Part shown: piece by piece, positions 8,203-50,823 of the stretch
Layout of the letters: every line of letters begins with the position of its first letter
Position numbering within the stretch: the stretch's first letter is position 1
From: a virus
Strand: one strand, 5' to 3'
Virus record (IMG/VR): IMGVR_UViG_3300020469_000065
Span: 1-52,129 of that record
Length of the DNA: 52,129 bases
The notes under the pieces: generated by a model
What the model was told of the DNA's origin: nothing
The model's database searches: none
The model's input: the letters and a program-made list of their open reading frames with translations, nothing else
Program-made: the position numbers and the translations under genes

Positions 8203-8965
8203 ATCAACATTAGAAGAAATTCTTAAAGAAGAAATACAAGCAATTATTAACGAACGGGAGCTTGATGAGCAAGGCTTTGCTAGCAAAGTTGGTGGATTTT
8301 TAAAAGGCTTAAGAAGACCGGGAGATCTGGGTCGCTCAAGAAGAGCCAAAACTAGAGCCATGGATAGACAAGCAGATGCTAGTGATTTTAACAAGTCCAA
8401 GACTAGTTCAAAAAAATCCAAAGGTGTGCCAAGACCCGGTCGCCCTTTAGATAAATACGACAGCAGAAGAAAAGTAAAAAAAGTTTCTCTTCTGGATGAT
8501 ATCATACCAAGAGTAGAAAAAAAACTTGGTTATACTGGACCAACTTTTGAATATGATAAAGAAGAAAGACAAAAAAATGCAGCAGCATTAACAGACTTTG
8601 CTGAAAAATTCGGAGATAGTTTCCCAGATGGAATTAAATTTGGAGACAAAGAGCAACGTGCTGATAAAAATAAAATGATAGCCCACCAGCAAACCGCTAA
8701 AGCATTGGAAATGCAAATTAAAAGATTAGAAAAAGAAGTTAATAAAGCAAAAGAAAAAGCAAAATCAGAACAAGATAACGCTGCAATAAGTAAGAAATTT
8801 GCAATTAAACAACTAAGAACTTTATATAAAAAAGGAGAAGAAGGTTTAAATTCGCAAATTTTATCTATGATTATTGATGAATTACCAGAAGATGGTATTA
8901 TTGTGGAACATCTTTTAACTGAAGTCATATACGAAAACCTAAAAGGTAATAGAGTGGTTCTATGA
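8195..8965 (+). CDS. Basic helical protein with capsid-targeting-like N-terminus
   Basis: The 256-residue protein starts STLEEILKEEIQAIINE, with L-K-E and I-N-E as potential gp21-type sites. A basic, probably disordered segment follows (about 35-95, many R, K and S). A lysine/glutamate-rich coiled coil lies at about 165-205 (MQIKRLEKEVNKAKEKAK). Codons here are more AT-rich than in flanking genes, which may mean recent acquisition. It overlaps the protease gene by 8 bases and the next gene by 4. A prohead core or packaged DNA-binding role is inferred from the N-terminus, charge and position. Confidence 0.7.
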   Translation: MNKSTLEEILKEEIQAIINERELDEQGFASKVGGFLKGLRRPGDLGRSRRAKTRAMDRQADASDFNKSKTSSKKSKGVPRPGRPLDKYDSRRKVKKVSLLDDIIPRVEKKLGYTGPTFEYDKEERQKNAAALTDFAEKFGDSFPDGIKFGDKEQRADKNKMIAHQQTAKALEMQIKRLEKEVNKAKEKAKSEQDNAAISKKFAIKQLRTLYKKGEEGLNSQILSMIIDELPEDGIIVEHLLTEVIYENLKGNRVVL

Positions 8966-9393
8966 ACAAGACACAACTCAAAAAACTAATCAAGCCAGTC
9001 GTAAAGGAATGTATTCAAGAAGTTCTTATAGAAGAGGGTTTGCTTACAGAGGTCGTCTCACAAGTAACTGCTGGCTTATCCAAGCAGCCGATTGTTGAGA
9101 ATAGACCAAAGAAAAGAAACGATAACCTATTTAATGAAGACTTGCAAATGAAGCGTAAGTCCCGTGAGGCGAACAAAAAACTACAAGAGCATCGTAGAAA
9201 GCTACTAGACTCAATTGGCGGTGATGCCTATAACGGAGTGGATCTTTTTGAGGGCACAGAGCCCCTAAGAAACACAGGATCTCCCGGTCAGGCGCACAAA
9301 TCAAGTGTCCTAGGTGATGATCCCAACGATGCAGGCGTAGATATAAGTTCAATCATGGGTAACTCAAGCAAGATTTGGCAAGCGATTAAATAG
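8962..9393 (+). CDS. Hypothetical head-associated protein with targeting-like N-terminus
   Basis: This 143-residue protein begins NKTQLKKLIKPVVKECIQE and continues EVLIEEGLLTEV, giving LIE and LTE as candidate protease sites. The middle is strongly basic (about 55-85). The C-terminal part contains VDLFEGTEP and DDPNDAGVDISSIMG, which I recall as recurring in marine T4-like phage proteins near gene 21. No enzymatic feature is visible. It is coupled to the upstream gene through ATGA. The bS21 gene begins nine bases after its stop. Confidence 0.75.
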   Translation: MNKTQLKKLIKPVVKECIQEVLIEEGLLTEVVSQVTAGLSKQPIVENRPKKRNDNLFNEDLQMKRKSREANKKLQEHRRKLLDSIGGDAYNGVDLFEGTEPLRNTGSPGQAHKSSVLGDDPNDAGVDISSIMGNSSKIWQAIK

Positions 9394-10826: not shown

Positions 10827-11822
10827 ATGGCTTATAACCTTCTCTCTGGAACAGTTGTCGCAAACGAATCAGTCGTTTTCGAGCCGTCTACAAATGGCAG
10901 CGAGTTCACAAACGTAATTGTTGGTGAATTTAGAGGCGACGGGCAACAATTGCAAAATGTTGCCAGAGTAGTTGCTAATGGAACAACTGATTATCTTGTC
11001 TCTATTGGTTCAAACGCAGACAGTTTAGTTGGAGAACCAAACCTTAGATTTAATGGCTCTCGTTTGCTTGTTTTGGGAGCAGTTACTGCCTCCACAATGA
11101 ACCTATCTTCTATTAGTGCAGGTCAAGCACTGACCTCATCTTTTTTAGCACTTGATGATAATAACAATGTAGTCCTTACTTCTTCTGCTGGTGGTCCTGA
11201 CTTTGCAGTTGCCCAAGGTCCAATTAACTCTCTACAATTTCATTCAAGCCCAGGTGACATAAGTGGCTCCGATAATTTTACTCTTGTCGGCAGCACATTG
11301 TTTGTGACTGGAAACATAGTAGTTTCTGGAAATGTAGAGGCACACGGTTTTGACATTGTTCAAACAACCCTGGTAGAGATAAATCAATCTGGCTCAAGTG
11401 CCTTGGGCAATTCAAATGATGATACTCACCATTTCACAGGTTCTGTTTCTGTGTTCTCTTCTAGCACAGATCTATTTGCGATTGATGTAGAAAATAAAAA
11501 TACAAAAATAAAAACTGGTTTAGTATTCAATAGGACTTCGATTACTTCAAACTATTCTGTTCTGACATCAGATTATTATGTTGGTATTGACACAGCAACT
11601 CCTAGTTCTGTAATTACCGCAAGTTTGCCAGCAGCCGAATCTTTGCAATCAGGGCAAACTTTTGTTTTTAAAGATGAGGGTGGAAGTGCCCATCAATACA
11701 GCATTGTCATAGAACCATCTGGCTCTCAAAAAATTGACAATCAAAATAAAGTAATTTTAGAATCACCTCATGCATCTTTGACCATTTATACGGACGGCGC
11801 GTCAAAGTTCTTTATTACTTGA
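10827..11822 (+). CDS. Fibre-like structural protein, paralogue 2
   Basis: The 331-residue protein begins MAYNLLSGTVVANESVVFEP, similar to the starts at 11909 and 14212 (MAYKFQLGSAI, MAYNVLKGNV). The middle repeats the motif of the previous protein: GPINSLQFHSSPGDISGSDN, then TLFVTGNIVVSGNVEAHGF. The C-terminal domain (EPSGSQKIDNQNKVILES to YTDGASKFFIT) is shared with its three paralogues. All features fit an elongated beta-rich virion fibre. AAGGGGG precedes the ATG at a suitable distance. It is probably transcribed with the two upstream genes from the box at 9652. Confidence 0.75.
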   Translation: MAYNLLSGTVVANESVVFEPSTNGSEFTNVIVGEFRGDGQQLQNVARVVANGTTDYLVSIGSNADSLVGEPNLRFNGSRLLVLGAVTASTMNLSSISAGQALTSSFLALDDNNNVVLTSSAGGPDFAVAQGPINSLQFHSSPGDISGSDNFTLVGSTLFVTGNIVVSGNVEAHGFDIVQTTLVEINQSGSSALGNSNDDTHHFTGSVSVFSSSTDLFAIDVENKNTKIKTGLVFNRTSITSNYSVLTSDYYVGIDTATPSSVITASLPAAESLQSGQTFVFKDEGGSAHQYSIVIEPSGSQKIDNQNKVILESPHASLTIYTDGASKFFIT

Positions 11823-11832
11823 TATAAAATAC

Positions 11833-11908
11833 ACTATTTAAAAGCATAATGACGCTGTTGTTTTACATCAGTGCATTATCCATTTTTATCTTTAGGAGGA
11901 TTTTATAA
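11833..11908 (+). promoter_or_regulatory. Putative late promoter and hairpin leader
   Basis: ACTATTTA is at 11833-11840. The following leader contains an inverted repeat, ATAATG (11846-11851) with CATTAT (11874-11879) and an inner CTG/CAG pairing, then AGGAGG about 10 bases before the ATG at 11909. The hairpin would lie at the 5' end of the late mRNA and could stabilise it. The promoter call rests on recurrence of the box. Confidence 0.6.
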
Positions 11909-14101
11909 ATGGCTTACAAATTTCAATTAGGTTCTGCTATTCTTAGTGGTTCCACAAAGTTCGAGGAAGAGGTTGACGCCGCTGGCGGTATTAAGGTCTC
12001 TGGTGTTAGTGACACCGCACTCGACGTTTCTGCTGATAGCTTCTTGTTCCGTGATGCTGACGGAACCATGAAGCGCGATACCATGGCTGATTACGCTACT
12101 GCAATCGCTGGTGACGGTCTTGCCGCTTCATCCGGTGTTCTTGCTGTCGGTGTTGATGATTCTACTGTTGAGCTTAACTCTGACGCTCTTCGCATCAAAG
12201 ACTCCGGTGTTACCGCTGCAAAGCTTAACACTGATGTCATCTCTGCGCAGGTTGAGTTGGCTCATGCTGACATTGCTGACGCTGATGAACTTATGATTTC
12301 TGATGGTGGAGTTCTTAAGAAGACTGGCGTTGATAGTCTCCGTGATCACTTCTTTGGTGTCGTGTCTGGCGATGCCACTGTTGCTGATGGCGGTGCCCTT
12401 ACCATTGCTGCTAACGCTGTTGAGGACTCCATGGTCAACGACAACGTTGCGACCGGTCTTGCTGGTGTTGGTCTCTCTGCCGCTTCTGGCGTCATGGCAC
12501 TAGATTTGAACGAACTTACCGCTGAAACACTTGCTTCTGGCGATTTTCTCGCTTTCGTTGACAGCACTGACAACGGTACCCACAAGGAAAGCGTTGATGA
12601 CCTTGCTACCCTTTTTGCTGGTAATGGTCTCGCTGCTGCTTCTGCCGTACTATCAGTTGATCTTAACGAGCTTGGCGCTGCTACCGTTAACGTTGGTGCT
12701 GACAGCATTGCTATTATTGACGCTGACGATTCAAACGGCTCTAAAAAGGAAAGCATTGCCGATCTTATGACCGCTGTTGCTGGTTCTGGTCTTAAGTCTG
12801 AAAATGGTGTTCTTGAGGTTCGAGTCTCTGGTTCAATTGTTCGCGACTCTGACAAGCTTGGTATCAGTGGCTCAATCGCTGGCGCCGGTCTTTCATTCAC
12901 AGGTGGTGATAACAGTATATCCAGCTTGGCTGTCGGTGAGATCACCAACGGTGGTATTACTGCTCTTCCTGATGGCGTAAAGCTAGACCTCGCTGGTCTC
13001 GCTGCTGCCTCTGTTGATGTCGCAAACGATAGTATCGCAATTCTTGATGCTGGTGATAGCTCCAGTAAGAAAGAAAGTGTTGCTGACCTTATGACTGCTG
13101 TTGCTGGTAACGGTCTCGCTGCTGCCTCTGGTGTCCTTTCACTTGATGCTTCCGAGGTCGCTTCTGCCGCTATAGCTTCCGGCGACCACTTTGTTTTCCA
13201 CGATGTCACTGACGATAGCACCAAAAAGGAAACTGTCGATGATCTTGCTAGCTTTATGGCTGGTGTTGGTCTCTCTGCCGCTTCTGGTGTTCTTACACTT
13301 GACATTGATGAATTTGGTGCTCTTGGTGGTGCTAGCGTTGATCAAGCTGATAACTTCTTGGTCTCTGATGGTGGCACTGAAAAGAAGGTTACTTTTTCTA
13401 ACCTTGAAGATACTATTTTTGGAAACGTTAGTGGTGATGCTACTATAGCTGCTGGTGGTGCTCTTACTATTGCTGCTGGTGCAGTTGAGCACGGTATGCT
13501 TGCTGAAGACATCATTTCTGGTCAGGCTGAATTGCTTCATGCAGAAATCAACGATGATGATGAAATGATGATTGATGATGCTGGCGAAGTTAAGAAGGTT
13601 GGCGTTGATAGTCTTCGCGACCACTTCTTCGGTGCTGTCTCTGGTGACGCTACTGTGGCTGACGGTGGTGCACTTACCATTGCTGCTGATGCTGTTGAAA
13701 GTGGAATGCTTAACGACAATGTCATCTCCGGTCAGACCGACATCGGCGCCGCAATTGCTGACACTGACGAGCTTCTTATCAGTGATGCTGGTAGCCTTAG
13801 AAGAACTGACGTTTCTAGACTTCGCGCTATGCCCGTTGCTGAGCGTGGCGATGGAGACACACTAGCTTCTGGTATGAACTTCTTTGGTGACCTCAGTTCC
13901 AACGCTACTGTCAGCCTCCCTGCTTCACCTGAAGTTGGCGATAAGGTTGTAGCGAAGGCTAAAGGTCTTACTGGTGCCAAGATCATTATCAACAGACAAG
14001 GCTCACACACTATTGATGGTGCAACCTCAGTAGAAATCGAGTCACCTTTTGGTGCTGTTACTTGTGTCTACGTTAACGCTAACGATTGGAGACTTATCTG
14101 A
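11909..14101 (+). CDS. Large repeat-containing fibre-like structural protein
   Basis: The 730-residue protein is built mainly from repeats of about 50 residues. One type is of the form DSxAIxDAxDxSxKKESVxDL followed by AGxGLAAASGVLSLDxxE, seen at least five times. The other type is VSGDATVADGGALTIAA, seen three times. Single GVDSLRDHFFG segments link them. The last 50 residues (IIINRQGSHTIDGATSVEI to YVNANDWRLI) match the C-terminal domain of the proteins at 10161, 10827 and 14212. It starts after a strong AGGAGG and ends before an intrinsic terminator, so it forms its own unit. High expression in the virion is likely. Confidence 0.8.
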   Translation: MAYKFQLGSAILSGSTKFEEEVDAAGGIKVSGVSDTALDVSADSFLFRDADGTMKRDTMADYATAIAGDGLAASSGVLAVGVDDSTVELNSDALRIKDSGVTAAKLNTDVISAQVELAHADIADADELMISDGGVLKKTGVDSLRDHFFGVVSGDATVADGGALTIAANAVEDSMVNDNVATGLAGVGLSAASGVMALDLNELTAETLASGDFLAFVDSTDNGTHKESVDDLATLFAGNGLAAASAVLSVDLNELGAATVNVGADSIAIIDADDSNGSKKESIADLMTAVAGSGLKSENGVLEVRVSGSIVRDSDKLGISGSIAGAGLSFTGGDNSISSLAVGEITNGGITALPDGVKLDLAGLAAASVDVANDSIAILDAGDSSSKKESVADLMTAVAGNGLAAASGVLSLDASEVASAAIASGDHFVFHDVTDDSTKKETVDDLASFMAGVGLSAASGVLTLDIDEFGALGGASVDQADNFLVSDGGTEKKVTFSNLEDTIFGNVSGDATIAAGGALTIAAGAVEHGMLAEDIISGQAELLHAEINDDDEMMIDDAGEVKKVGVDSLRDHFFGAVSGDATVADGGALTIAADAVESGMLNDNVISGQTDIGAAIADTDELLISDAGSLRRTDVSRLRAMPVAERGDGDTLASGMNFFGDLSSNATVSLPASPEVGDKVVAKAKGLTGAKIIINRQGSHTIDGATSVEIESPFGAVTCVYVNANDWRLI
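12340..13760 (+). repeat. Imperfect DNA repeats coding for protein modules
   Basis: Segments such as those starting near 12340 and 13590 (GGCGTTGATAGTCT-CG followed by GATCACTTCTT or GACCACTTCTT) and near 12600, 12760, 13080 and 13230 are similar in DNA as well as in protein. Similarity at silent sites suggests recent duplication or gene conversion between modules rather than only protein-level selection. Confidence 0.6.
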
Positions 14102-47617: not shown

Positions 47618-48325
47618 ATGACCAGCAAATCAATTGAATTATACGGCGACGGCATTGGTCGCGTCGATTATGTAAATCATATGGGTGACGACCTTACCGT
47701 CGTAAACTCTGCCCGAGTATCATTCGGAGTAGAAAAGGAGAATTTAGATGAACGTGATAAGAAGCTTATCAACTACCTCATCAAACACAAACATACCTCT
47801 ACTCTTGAGCATAATCTCATTACTTTCAGGTTTAGTGTTCCTATGTTCGTTCGGTCTCAGCACCATCGTCATAGAACATGGTCTTATAATGAGATTAGTA
47901 GACGCTACACTGATGTAAACATCAACTTCTACGAACCAAAAGAGTTCAGAACACAACACAAGAGCAACCGGCAGGCAAGCAACGCCGAAGAGTTGATTGA
48001 TCCAGATCTGTTTCTCGCAGGAACACACAAGGTTGCGGCTTCCGAAGCATTCCGAGGACACAATAAGATTTCTCTGGAATTGTTCAACAGCCTTATCGAA
48101 GCAGGCGTTTGCCGAGAACAGGCAAGAGGGGTTCTACCACAGAACCTCTACACCGAATACTACGGCACAGTCAATCTGTCTAACCTCTTGAAGTTCATTG
48201 ACCTTCGCACACACGAAGGGGCACAATGGGAGATCCAAAAGGTTGCCGAGGCTTGTTTGGAAATTGCTACGGATCTGTTCCCTGAAACTGTGGGTGCTTA
48301 TCGTAGGATTAGGAACGAAGAATGA
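47618..48325 (+). CDS. thyX: Flavin-dependent thymidylate synthase ThyX
   Basis: The 235-residue enzyme makes dTMP from dUMP with methylenetetrahydrofolate and FAD. The ThyX signature RHRTWSYNEISRRY is at 84-97. Nearby HHRHR and the C-terminal FIDLRTHEGAQWEIQKVAEA with R residues for dUMP also fit. Together with NrdJ it provides nucleotides for replication. It ends RNEE, and its stop region GGAACGAAGAATGA is the first, slightly diverged, copy of the repeat joining the downstream small genes. Confidence 0.94.
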   Translation: MTSKSIELYGDGIGRVDYVNHMGDDLTVVNSARVSFGVEKENLDERDKKLINYLIKHKHTSTLEHNLITFRFSVPMFVRSQHHRHRTWSYNEISRRYTDVNINFYEPKEFRTQHKSNRQASNAEELIDPDLFLAGTHKVAASEAFRGHNKISLELFNSLIEAGVCREQARGVLPQNLYTEYYGTVNLSNLLKFIDLRTHEGAQWEIQKVAEACLEIATDLFPETVGAYRRIRNEE

Positions 48326-48594
48326 TTACAATAAAAAGCACATTTAACTTGACCTCACAGACGTTTAGCGAATACTTTAATTCAAATATAGATTTGGAAA
48401 TTAGAAAGTATCGTGGACGAAAACGCCTTAGAAAGAAAAGAGCGAAAGCTGCCCTTAGAGCACGATGGATGGCGGAAAGTTTTTTATCTACTATTTCTCG
48501 CAGAATTGATTATCATTCGATTTGTGATCAGTTTATGGAGATTGAAGATTTAAGAATTCTTTCTGCAATACCTTTTAAGGAGAACGAAGAATGA
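48322..48594 (+). CDS. Small array gene 1, basic helical protein
   Basis: The 90-residue protein has an N-terminal polar part and a strongly basic helix (RGRKRLRKKRAKAALRARWM, about 37-56), ending FKENEE. RNA or DNA binding is possible from charge only. It starts within the ATGA of the thyX stop and ends in a full junction repeat. Confidence 0.7.
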   Translation: MITIKSTFNLTSQTFSEYFNSNIDLEIRKYRGRKRLRKKRAKAALRARWMAESFLSTISRRIDYHSICDQFMEIEDLRILSAIPFKENEE

Positions 48595-48740
48595 AAAAGC
48601 AAAATAGCTTTCCACTTTGGTTTATGTTGGTGTTTATTGCACCGTTTATTTTTGGATATGCTCTTTGGGGCGAGTTTATTTATGGTGATTGGAAGTGTGG
48701 GTTTGCTGAATGTCGTATACTCAAGGAAAACGAAGAATGA
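48591..48740 (+). CDS. Small array gene 2, 49-residue membrane protein
   Basis: ATG at 48591 lies in the junction repeat after GGAG, and the frame ends at the TGA of 48738-48740. The 49-residue product has one transmembrane segment (PLWFMLVFIAPFIFGYALWG, about 8-27), then a short tail with two cysteines (WKCGFAEC) and the ENEE end. Orientation and function are unknown. Holin-like size is noted, but nothing else supports that role. Confidence 0.75.
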   Translation: MKKQNSFPLWFMLVFIAPFIFGYALWGEFIYGDWKCGFAECRILKENEE

Positions 48741-48961
48741 GTGACAAACCAAAGGTTAAAGGGGACTTTTGCCCCCGTTGCGATAAAAATGTGAAATGGT
48801 TTCCTGTTCCTGATTCACTGGCCTCTTTCTGTAAAGGGTGCGGTTTTGTAAGAGTAGGGTTTGGCGAGACAGATGAAAGTGGAATAAGACTTTATGATGT
48901 TGGAGCCACGATACAACAGTGGTTAGAAAATGTTTTTGGCACGAAGGAGAACGAAGAATGA
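48737..48961 (+). CDS. Small array gene 3, zinc-ribbon protein
   Basis: The start is ATG 48737 in the junction repeat, not the longer in-frame start at 48710. The 74-residue protein has CPRC (about 12-15) and CKGC (about 32-35), a typical two-knuckle zinc ribbon, then an acidic segment and IQQWLENVFGTKENEE. It begins MSDK, like array gene 5 (MSDN). The function is unknown. Confidence 0.75.
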   Translation: MSDKPKVKGDFCPRCDKNVKWFPVPDSLASFCKGCGFVRVGFGETDESGIRLYDVGATIQQWLENVFGTKENEE

Positions 48962-49182
48962 AAGTTGGTGATAAAGTTCAGTATTGTGGCTACGACACCC
49001 TTGGCGCAACAGGCGAGATCATAAGAGAAAAAGAAAAAACTCTTTACTATAGTAAGTGGGAACGCGAAGGTGACGATAGGTATTGTATGTGTTATCTTGT
49101 AAGATACACAATGCCAAACGGCAAGACTATCAACAATGTTGCGAGAATAGAAGATCTAAAACTACTGGAGAACGAAGAATGA
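48958..49182 (+). CDS. Small array gene 4, MKVGDKV-type small beta-barrel
   Basis: The 74-residue protein begins MKVGDKVQYCGYDTLGATGE and contains strands YLVRYTMPNGKTINNVARIE, which together look like an SH3/KOW-type barrel. The first 18 bases after the ATG are nearly identical to those of array gene 7, so the two share an origin. It ends LLENEE. The function is unknown. Confidence 0.75.
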   Translation: MKVGDKVQYCGYDTLGATGEIIREKEKTLYYSKWEREGDDRYCMCYLVRYTMPNGKTINNVARIEDLKLLENEE

Positions 49183-49460
49183 GTGACAATGAAAAACGAC
49201 TGCTTAAATCCTTGATGGGCTTTTCAAATGCACACAGTATTTTGCTGGAAAGGTGCAGGAGATTAAAGAGAGATTTTGATTCTGCTATATCTTATGGTGA
49301 TATCGTTGATGATGGGATGGATACTGCTGCTGAACTACTTTCAAGATTTCTTGAGGATGTGTTCCTGTTGGAGAACGAAGAAGACACTGCTTATCTAAAA
49401 AAGAATCTTTTTGAATCACTTAAAGTGCCAAAAGAGTTTCTTAAGGAGAACGAAGAATGA
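49179..49460 (+). CDS. Small array gene 5, apparent fusion of two cassettes
   Basis: The start is ATG 49179 in the junction repeat; the longer frame from 49083 lies inside gene 4. The 93-residue helical protein (SLMGFSNAHSILLERCRRLK) contains VFLLENEEDTAYLKK at about 62-76. There the junction repeat GGAGAACGAAGAA is kept (49370-49382) but ATGA is replaced by GACA, so translation runs on for 25 more residues to a second ENEE. This is what loss of a stop between two cassettes would look like. Confidence 0.75.
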   Translation: MSDNEKRLLKSLMGFSNAHSILLERCRRLKRDFDSAISYGDIVDDGMDTAAELLSRFLEDVFLLENEEDTAYLKKNLFESLKVPKEFLKENEE

Positions 49461-49831
49461 AAGTCGGTGATCTGATAACTCCACAAGGAGACAACATCTT
49501 TGTTGTTTTCCAAAAGAAGTGGATTATGTCGCGCCCCCGTTATGCAAGTATGGGAGCACCACCAAGTGCTGATTTTTATCCACAAAGCACCACCGAGCAT
49601 CGTGTTGCAGAAGTTGCCGAGGACAATCAAATCTTGTTCCAAGGATTGACTTTGGGTGTTTGGCCAAGCGAAGAGTTTAAGGTTGCGATTTTCAATGAAG
49701 AAGAATACCGAGTCTATCTAAACGAGAACTACATTAAGTGCTTTTATTGTAGTTCTGTTTTCAGCATCAATCAATTTGATGACGATTACGCTATCTGCGG
49801 CAAGTGCCGAGATGAGGAGAACGAAGAATGA
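49457..49831 (+). CDS. Small array gene 6, MKVGD-type protein with zinc motif
   Basis: The 124-residue protein starts MKVGDLITPQGDNIFVVF, an N-terminal barrel-like segment related to genes 4 and 7. A linker region (ASMGAPPSADFYPQ) follows. The C-terminal zinc ribbon is CFYC (about 93-96) and CGKC (about 113-116), ending RDEENEE. It looks like a combination of the two domain types found singly in genes 3 and 4. Confidence 0.75.
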   Translation: MKVGDLITPQGDNIFVVFQKKWIMSRPRYASMGAPPSADFYPQSTTEHRVAEVAEDNQILFQGLTLGVWPSEEFKVAIFNEEEYRVYLNENYIKCFYCSSVFSINQFDDDYAICGKCRDEENEE

Positions 49832-50034
49832 AAGTCGGTGATAAAGTTCGTCTTGCTCATTTCCACGGCTCTACCGGAGATCAAATCTTGGCTGAAAGCG
49901 GAGCCGCAGGAGTAATCAAGAGCATTGAAGAAGAACCTGAACCAAATGTTCTTACACGATGTGTAGAAGTTCAGTGGAACGACGGCATCAGTTGGCACTT
50001 TCGGCATACACTTATTTTGGAGAACGAAGAATGA
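49828..50034 (+). CDS. Small array gene 7, MKVGDKV-type small beta-barrel
   Basis: The 68-residue protein (MKVGDKVRLAHFHGSTGDQI, then GAAGVIKSIEE and VEVQWNDGISWHFRHTLI) has the strand pattern of an SH3-like barrel and resembles gene 4. The sequence from the repeat through the first seven codons is almost identical in the two genes. It ends LENEE. Confidence 0.75.
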   Translation: MKVGDKVRLAHFHGSTGDQILAESGAAGVIKSIEEEPEPNVLTRCVEVQWNDGISWHFRHTLILENEE

Positions 50035-50132
50035 TTGAATACCACCAGTTTGCATATTTTATTGCAGTAATATGGACCACTTGTATGGTCACTTTCTTTT
50101 GGCTTATATCAAGGCTAGGACCAAAGAAGTGA
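50031..50132 (+). CDS. Small array gene 8, 33-residue membrane peptide
   Basis: ATG at 50031 in the last junction repeat reads 33 codons to TGA at 50130-50132. The product is essentially one membrane helix (FAYFIAVIWTTCMVTFFWLI) with a basic tail (SRLGPKK). It lacks the ENEE end, so it closes the array; its stop overlaps the late box that follows. Confidence 0.72.
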   Translation: MIEYHQFAYFIAVIWTTCMVTFFWLISRLGPKK

Positions 50133-50154: not shown

Positions 50155-50823
50155 ATGAAAAAGATTATAAACGAATGGAATAGCTTTCTAAATGAAAGTT
50201 CAATTAGCCGCACTTACGAACACATACTCAATCACGACACAGCGTTTATCACAGCGTTCCGTGATGATCCCGGCGATCCTACTAAATGTAGAAAACCATC
50301 TAAACTAAAAAAGGTACAGGTCCCTGCCGCAAAACAGCGAAGCATGATTCAATCAAACAAAGAAAGAAACATGTTCTTAAAGGCTGCTCTATTGGAAAGA
50401 GGATACGGAGTCACTGATGTTGACGGTACCTACGTTGAAGACTTTGGAACTGATGCAGCGAAAGAAGTAAAAGAAGATTCATTCTTCGTTGTTAATTTGA
50501 ACGATGACCCTTCCTTTAAGGGATTTCTTAACGGGTTATCAGAACACTTCTGCCAGGACTCTTTCTTATATGTCAATCGTGGTGGGGAGAGTTCAGTGCT
50601 TATCGGCACCAATGACAGTGAATTCCCTGGTTTTGGAAATCAAGCGCCGATGGGCTCATTCTTGGGCGGCAAGGAAGGAGAATTCATGACTCGTGTTGGT
50701 AAGTCTAAGCGCCCTATTAAGTTTGCTGAAGGTCTTGATACAAAAAAGAAATCTCAGAACAACACCAAGTTTCTTATTTCTAAATTTTCTAAAGAATTGT
50801 TAAAAGAAATCAAGGGAGGATAA
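50155..50823 (+). CDS. Putative packaged protein, DUF3293-like, with targeting-type N-terminus
   Basis: The 222-residue protein begins MKKIINEWNSFLNES, in form like the T4 internal protein leader MKTYQEFIAE, with F-L-N-E as the cleavage site for the gp21-type protease. The body starts SRTYEHILNHDTAFITAFRD and has NKERNMFLKAALLERGYGVT, EDSFFVVNLNDD, HFCQDSFLYVNRGGE, an order that resembles DUF3293 proteins of unknown function. A late promoter precedes it. An internal head protein that could be injected with the DNA is inferred. Confidence 0.65.
   Translation: MKKIINEWNSFLNESSISRTYEHILNHDTAFITAFRDDPGDPTKCRKPSKLKKVQVPAAKQRSMIQSNKERNMFLKAALLERGYGVTDVDGTYVEDFGTDAAKEVKEDSFFVVNLNDDPSFKGFLNGLSEHFCQDSFLYVNRGGESSVLIGTNDSEFPGFGNQAPMGSFLGGKEGEFMTRVGKSKRPIKFAEGLDTKKKSQNNTKFLISKFSKELLKEIKGG

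Follow-up and report, generated by a model that had tools for sequence, protein, structure and literature searches.

A stop/start linker, most likely copied from the 3' tail of thyX, joins exchangeable small genes in uncultured T4-like phages

Introduction

It is a decades-old question whether phage mosaics form by recombination at short shared boundary sequences or by random joins among which selection then chooses; it has stayed open because most joints lack shared boundaries (PMC3233612, PMC3029335). According to the first model, as these two sources describe it, homologous recombination joins modules at short conserved boundary sequences (Susskind and Botstein 1978; Clark et al. 2001). In T4-type phages, PeSLs (promoter early stem-loops) are repeated elements between small accessory genes that mediate shuffling (Arbiol 2010; Comeau 2014, both as cited in PMC4503421). 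The SAS/ESAS elements of cluster K mycobacteriophages, with the consensus GGGATAGGAGCCC, are spread over half a genome and have been proposed for translation initiation; about half of them carry a 17-bp inverted repeat (ESAS), and they have not been shown to be recombination joints (PMC3203893).

Here we describe a locus in viral DNA (the window, W: the whole analysed stretch of 52,129 nt) at which a 16-nt linker, GGAGAACGAAGAATGA, separates single tiny genes, hereafter cassettes. Like the boundary sequences, it is a short sequence common to gene boundaries at which modules are joined. Unlike them, it is one linker in many copies per genome; it itself encodes a stop and a start, tends to be homogenised genome by genome, and probably stems from the thyX tail. 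With SAS it shares the character of a repeated, asymmetric, ribosome-site-like sequence in one orientation before the starts of accessory genes of varied families, but the linker as compared with that consensus, GGAGAACGAAGA, is unrelated to it, and no inverted repeat tied to the linkers was found in the window, so that the ESAS feature is not met. PeSLs likewise are repeated among small accessory genes of T4-like phages and go along with gene shuffling; a PeSL, however, consists of a promoter and a stem-loop, whereas the linker lies inside overlapping genes. Promoter-like sites in the array region are at chance level (7 versus 6.1) and terminator-like sites do not lie at linkers; this PeSL feature is thus not met either. 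Integron cassette arrays also hold promoterless small genes with a common joint, but here no integrase was matched (0 of 11 records, several of them fragments), there is no palindromic attC-type site, and the joints lie inside overlapping coding sequence. No paper describing this linker was found in the literature searched, the coverage of which was partial.

Results

Array layout and genome context

The gene content of the window, which is a piece of a virus record, is T4-type (terminase, portal, capsid, sheath, UvsX, helicase, ribonucleotide reductase), and the locus follows the order ribonucleotide reductase, small gene, amidase, thyX, array, S-AdoMet-lyase-like gene. For the S-adenosylmethionine lyase family, a counter-restriction role is known in some phages. 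Cultured relatives are distant: the best terminase match has 42% identity, ThyX about 40%, and the most widespread cassette family has no match among them; hence no cultured member or host can be named. Relatives of the amidase were sought in bacterial and archaeal genomes, and none were found.

The array (48322-50132, plus strand) is filled by eight short ORFs, each overlapping the next one via ATGA (Table 1). Six exact copies of the linker and one with a single mismatch (GGAAAACG...) all form stop/start joints. With up to three mismatches allowed, the window contains 11 matches versus 0.65 expected, a number reached by no shuffle. The first-pass annotation had described eight tiny genes on one repeat, with every joint alike and ENEE at the gene ends. 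The eight ORFs with their ATGA overlaps stand, but the joint at thyX is only partial, c8 ends in RLGPKK and is followed by an ordinary 22-nt gap, and an internal copy without ATG in c5 had been missed. Its statement that identity extends into the coding sequence at the MKVGD and MSD starts was borne out: c4 and c7 share 97% over 35 nt (c6: 80%), and the identity of c3 and c5 runs on as well. None of c1-c8 has a Pfam or PHROG match above threshold. As for the SH3-like barrels it had listed, such a fold is only weakly suggested for c7, by a predicted all-beta structure (pLDDT 72) without a PDB match at E<=0.001.

Table 1. Features of the thyX-lyase interval in the window.
Feature	Position	Strand	Description	Basis
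thyX	47618..48325	+	FAD-dependent thymidylate synthase; left anchor	PHROG thymidylate synthase E=1.7e-67
Joint 0	48310..48325	+	partial linker TAGGAACGAAGAATGA, 3 mismatches, at thyX 3' end (thyX to c1)	
c1	48322..48594	+	90 aa; C-terminal KENEE	ORF
Linker 1	48579..48594	+	exact	16-mer match
c2	48591..48740	+	49 aa; one likely membrane helix; C-terminal KENEE; no significant family	ORF
Linker 2	48725..48740	+	one mismatch (GGAAAACGAAGAATGA); same variant also upstream of c3 in L223	
c3	48737..48961	+	74 aa; four-cysteine, ribbon-like; L223 copy 100% identical in DNA, left neighbour different	
Linker 3	48946..48961	+	exact	16-mer match
c4	48958..49182	+	74 aa; MKVGD family; DNA identity 94-96% in L223, L216, L236, L130, neighbours different	
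Linker 4	49167..49182	+	exact	16-mer match
c5	49179..49460	+	93 aa; in-frame fusion across fossil linker to T4 portal-like piece of 25 residues (Pfam E=0.0022, not reaching curated cut-off)	
Fossil linker in c5	49370..49382	+	GGAGAACGAAGAA, without ATGA	
Linker 5	49445..49460	+	exact	16-mer match
c6	49457..49831	+	124 aa; MKVGD start and C-terminal four-cysteine ribbon; composite (N part cf. L216, C part cf. L134/L111)	
Linker 6	49816..49831	+	exact	16-mer match
c7	49828..50034	+	68 aa; MKVGD family; predicted all-beta; DNA identity 98-99.5% in L235, L236, L132	
Linker 7	50019..50034	+	exact	16-mer match
c8	50031..50132	+	33 aa; one likely membrane helix; final or penultimate cassette in W, L235, L236, L223, L212	
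Right anchor (DSG)	50155..50823	+	S-AdoMet lyase family protein	PF23780 E=3.5e-9; syntenic in relatives
c1-c8, window cassettes; L-numbers, loci in related virus contigs.

The linker is not the general ribosome-site consensus of this phage: the 12 nt upstream of 41 other window genes carry 3.7 bits, those upstream of the eight cassette starts 21.8 of 24 bits, and all 41 stretches differ from the linker in at least five bases. By this control and by the genome-versus-family test given below, ordinary conservation of ribosome sites alone is insufficient. A second, related genome group carries the linker GGAGAGCGAAGAATGA (AGC instead of AAC), with the tag ESEE. Peptide-tag selection for ENEE was rejected as well, because of this ESEE tag and because other cassettes use the thyX frame at their end or stop ahead of the linker; what is shared are the nucleotides, not the peptide, and the common ENEE tag is a by-product. 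Some joints have other ribosome sites, e.g. GGAGAGAAAGAAATGA.

Content of the slot in related phages

Loci were fetched by the 16-mer and, independently, by thyX, the lyase-like gene, the amidase and two cassettes. In 15 related virus contigs, some of which span only part of it, the slot amidase-thyX-[array]-SAM-lyase-like gene is filled with differing gene sets. Compared with thyX-c1..c8 in W, examples are thyX-c7-c8 in L235, thyX-x7-c3-c4-iron-sulphur protein-c8 in L223, thyX-x9-c4-c6'-x2-x4-x1 in L216, thyX-74-108-x5-c4-77-x2-x4-x1 in L130, and, behind another thyX, x6-137-c4-85-78-c7-c8 in L236 and x2-x4-x1 in L219. Four near-identical records from different samples (L208-L211) have one identical arrangement (T2-x3); otherwise content differs among the relatives examined. 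A gene order fixed in all relatives, or unrelated junction sequences, would have refuted the cassette interpretation. Neither was seen: the order varies between the same anchors, and most junctions consist of this linker or of the variant that differs from it by one base. Because c8 and x1 are mostly last, the order is incompletely free. Shared cassettes have 91-100% DNA identity, whereas for most of these pairs the core genes on either side are at about 70-90%. The exchange extends to thyX, in whose place a distant ThyX (Thy1, E=1.8e-31) can stand that likewise has a C-terminal KENEE. Among 16 relatives compared over the AMI-DSG region, thyX is also a mosaic with block boundaries repeatedly at a variable stretch in its middle.

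The cargo is mixed and mostly unknown; a host-takeover function is an untested guess that has not been shown. The array of L223 includes a metabolic gene (1210-1977). It begins at a linker, lies between c4 and c8, and encodes an iron-sulphur protein of 255 aa that resembles the B subunit of succinate dehydrogenase (Fer2_3 E=2.7e-22). In L367, an array with eight exact AGC linkers begins with a GIY-YIG-like gene (8568-9386) whose C-terminus is VESEE. Proteins of about 190 aa that match pieces of the phage major capsid protein occur in cassettes or their neighbours (L082:5167-5736; L170:2037-2615; L346, minus strand, 825-1403; L136:2965-3540); their phmmer E-values with the window capsid range from 7e-9 to 2e-5 (best reversed-sequence control 1e-3), and the two that were scanned have no PHROG match. 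It is possible that they are decoys or assembly inhibitors. Pieces of the T4-type portal protein (motifs NPLSxDEDYYIP and IAYLxKNLFEAxKIPKEYF) appear fused to varied partners in cassettes, as in L207:7171-7470 (E=2e-7) and, weakly, in the window (49383-49460), L111:216-575 and L320 (minus strand, 11547-12029). The linker is read through without a stop/start in c5 and in cassettes of L111, L141, L157, L356 and L367; the L111 fusion consists of c7, a portal-like piece and the c6 ribbon.

Position of the joints

That the genes form a translational cassette system, as first proposed from the window alone, is well supported by the position of block boundaries. We considered every boundary of blocks with at least 88% identity in the stretch between the thyX end and the right anchor of 16 loci. 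Of these 111 boundaries, 94 coincide with linkers, whereas 2000 draws under the null gave a mean of 17 and at most 30. The pairs are non-independent, though many families and contigs contribute. The remaining 17 boundaries are mostly at degenerate linkers, just past a linker, or in the thyX tail; about six to eight lie within genes, including the 5' end of c4 and c6. Taken over all families, identity between copies with different neighbours in most cases breaks off 10-16 nt upstream of the ATG and 0-2 nt downstream of the stop. This pattern is partly expected, since a linker was required at both starts; the boundary test is less biased. The copies of c7 in L236 and L132, for example, are 100% identical including 15 nt before the ATG and then unrelated, but both contigs come from one metagenome, so that other pairs weigh more. 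In a recent case, that of L224 and L219, the backbone genes are 97-99% identical, yet [thyX1-x8-x5] is replaced by [thyX2]; the right boundary is the linker before x2, with 99.2% identity beyond. A crossover in longer flanking homology would look the same in such cases.

The exact AAC or AGC 16-mer lies between two open frames of at least 25 codons in 151 unique contexts. Two features of the boundary-sequence model are thus met, i.e. the same short sequence joins unrelated genes, and novel joints coincide with it. In records of 30-191 kb, linker sites are confined to one strand and to few islands; a reversed-pattern control gave zero. In 308 unique linker contexts, the longest upstream ORF is in the ENEE frame 232 times, in the thyX frame 39 times and in the ATG frame 9 times, and 28 contexts have no ORF of 25 codons. 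The expectation that exchange leaves reading frames unbroken therefore holds mostly, but not for the other frames, for the cassettes that stop at a TAA ahead of the linker, or for the fusions. All comparisons are between metagenome assemblies; neither recombination nor expression was observed.

Pairs of linkers in one locus agree in the AAC/AGC variant in 82% of cases versus 51% expected. In cases of conflict between genome and gene family, the variant agrees with the genome 18 times and with the family 4 times (p=0.004; cases not fully independent). Judging from these counts, the variant tends to track the genome rather than the gene, which points to an exchange of linkers with those that the recipient genome carries. 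For recombination through homology at the linker, this gives no more than indirect support. In a pooled grouping by shared 150-mers, which merged different contigs, twenty-three gene families are present on both variants.

Origin of the linker in the thyX tail

A probable source of the linker, absent from the first-pass annotation, is the end of thyX: most likely, we infer, the linker is a copy of the thyX 3' tail read in another frame. ThyX ends in R-R-A/T-K-N-E, the codons of which contain a Shine-Dalgarno motif (GGAG) and an out-of-frame ATGA. In the AGC group, thyX ends in GA-Y-R-R-A-K-N-E/D with CGGAGAGCGAAGAATGA, and its codons TAT CGG AGA GCG AAG AAT GAx are the linker in a different frame; the AAC linker corresponds to the same codons but ACG (RRTKNE), and the thyX of L156 ends in RRTKNEHA. 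Behind array-free thyX genes with KNE or RNE tails (L150, L164, L175, L173, L193), the next gene starts inside the tail. The first cassette behind the tail differs in L305, L306, L190, L195, L194, L144, L169 and L171, and cassettes distant from thyX end in RRTKNE or RAKNE/D (x5, L312, L320, L356). From these observations we infer that the tail came first and was then copied; the direction from thyX to linker, and not the reverse, is inferred from the KNE tails in array-free phages. In the window's own thyX, the frame of the tail has moved to NEE, so that relatives show the proposed origin most clearly.

Discussion

The best explanation as a whole, which we consider likely, is that the array forms a hypervariable island of accessory genes in a group of uncultured T4-like phages, with linkers derived from thyX and recombination at these linkers. 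The compared assemblies directly exhibit the array, its varying content at one locus, new joints at linkers, the single strand, the genome-tending variant and the linker fusions. Origin from thyX, general recombination or annealing at the linker, translational coupling in vivo and a benefit of the accessory cargo are inferred. According to this model, the codons of the thyX tail (R-R-T/A-K-N-E) by chance hold GGAG and ATGA in another frame, and a gene set on the linker would be translated by stop/start coupling with the preceding gene, an inference drawn from the overlap. With tail copies between all cassettes, each cassette would begin and end in the same homology, and recombination of linker with linker, or of linker with thyX tail, could insert, delete, replace or fuse single genes, in most cases with start and stop signals that still work. 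Crossovers at the linker itself may proceed by general homologous recombination or annealing (UvsX-type), which we infer to be the most economical mechanism; UvsX was found in 9 of 11 records, and the two in which it was missing are fragments of 39-41 kb.

A rival reading takes the linker as merely a strongly selected ribosome-binding or coupling element, with exchange being illegitimate or via longer flanking homology and gene-end joints representing the surviving products. GGAG-8 nt-ATG is indeed a good Shine-Dalgarno context, long homology could explain several events, and many mosaic joints lack shared boundary sequences, which favours such a reading there (PMC3233612, PMC3029335). We nevertheless regard it as unlikely, because the element is absent from the other window genes, bases outside the Shine-Dalgarno motif are identical too, the variant tends to go with the genome and not the gene, and full linkers are kept where the upstream gene stops earlier or uses another frame, with fossils in fused genes. 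A dedicated site-specific system moving the cassettes, such as an integron-like recombinase or a homing nuclease acting on the linker, would fit the uniform 16-nt site, its single orientation and the one-gene cassettes, as well as the GIY-YIG-like gene opening the L367 array. We give this very little credence: among 11 records, six of them of 57-191 kb and several of the 11 fragments, there is no tyrosine integrase match and no serine resolvase above the cut-off, GIY-YIG genes occur in only two, and variant linkers and partial thyX tails act as joints too. Contigs that end or are gapped within arrays (L234, L236, L132, L298, L237/L221) might point to chimeric assembly at short repeats, an artefact that can practically be dismissed. 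Usual assembly k-mers are longer than the 16-nt repeat, the T2-x3 arrangement recurs identically in four records from different samples, and contigs of different samples contain the same cassettes at 91-98% identity, a pattern that chimeras formed from a single molecule could not produce.

Beyond the preferred reading of a thyX-derived linker array, a broader hypothesis can be offered tentatively, and we would sooner expect it to fail than to hold. The out-of-frame thyX 3' tail may have become the universal start/stop joint of a self-renewing translational cassette array, which captures any small open frame behind thyX, including capsid and portal scraps, and which by single-gene shuffling and new fusions would maintain a fast-changing accessory repertoire, possibly for counter-defence or as decoys.

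Since one boundary sequence occurs here in many copies, with dozens of interchangeable cassettes on closely related backbones, the two models of mosaicism predict opposite, testable outcomes at this locus. It is an unusually clear example in nature of single genes being traded among phages at short joints that they share. It also indicates how the end of a metabolic gene, read out of frame, might turn into a genetic connector, and how gene fusions come about through that connector.
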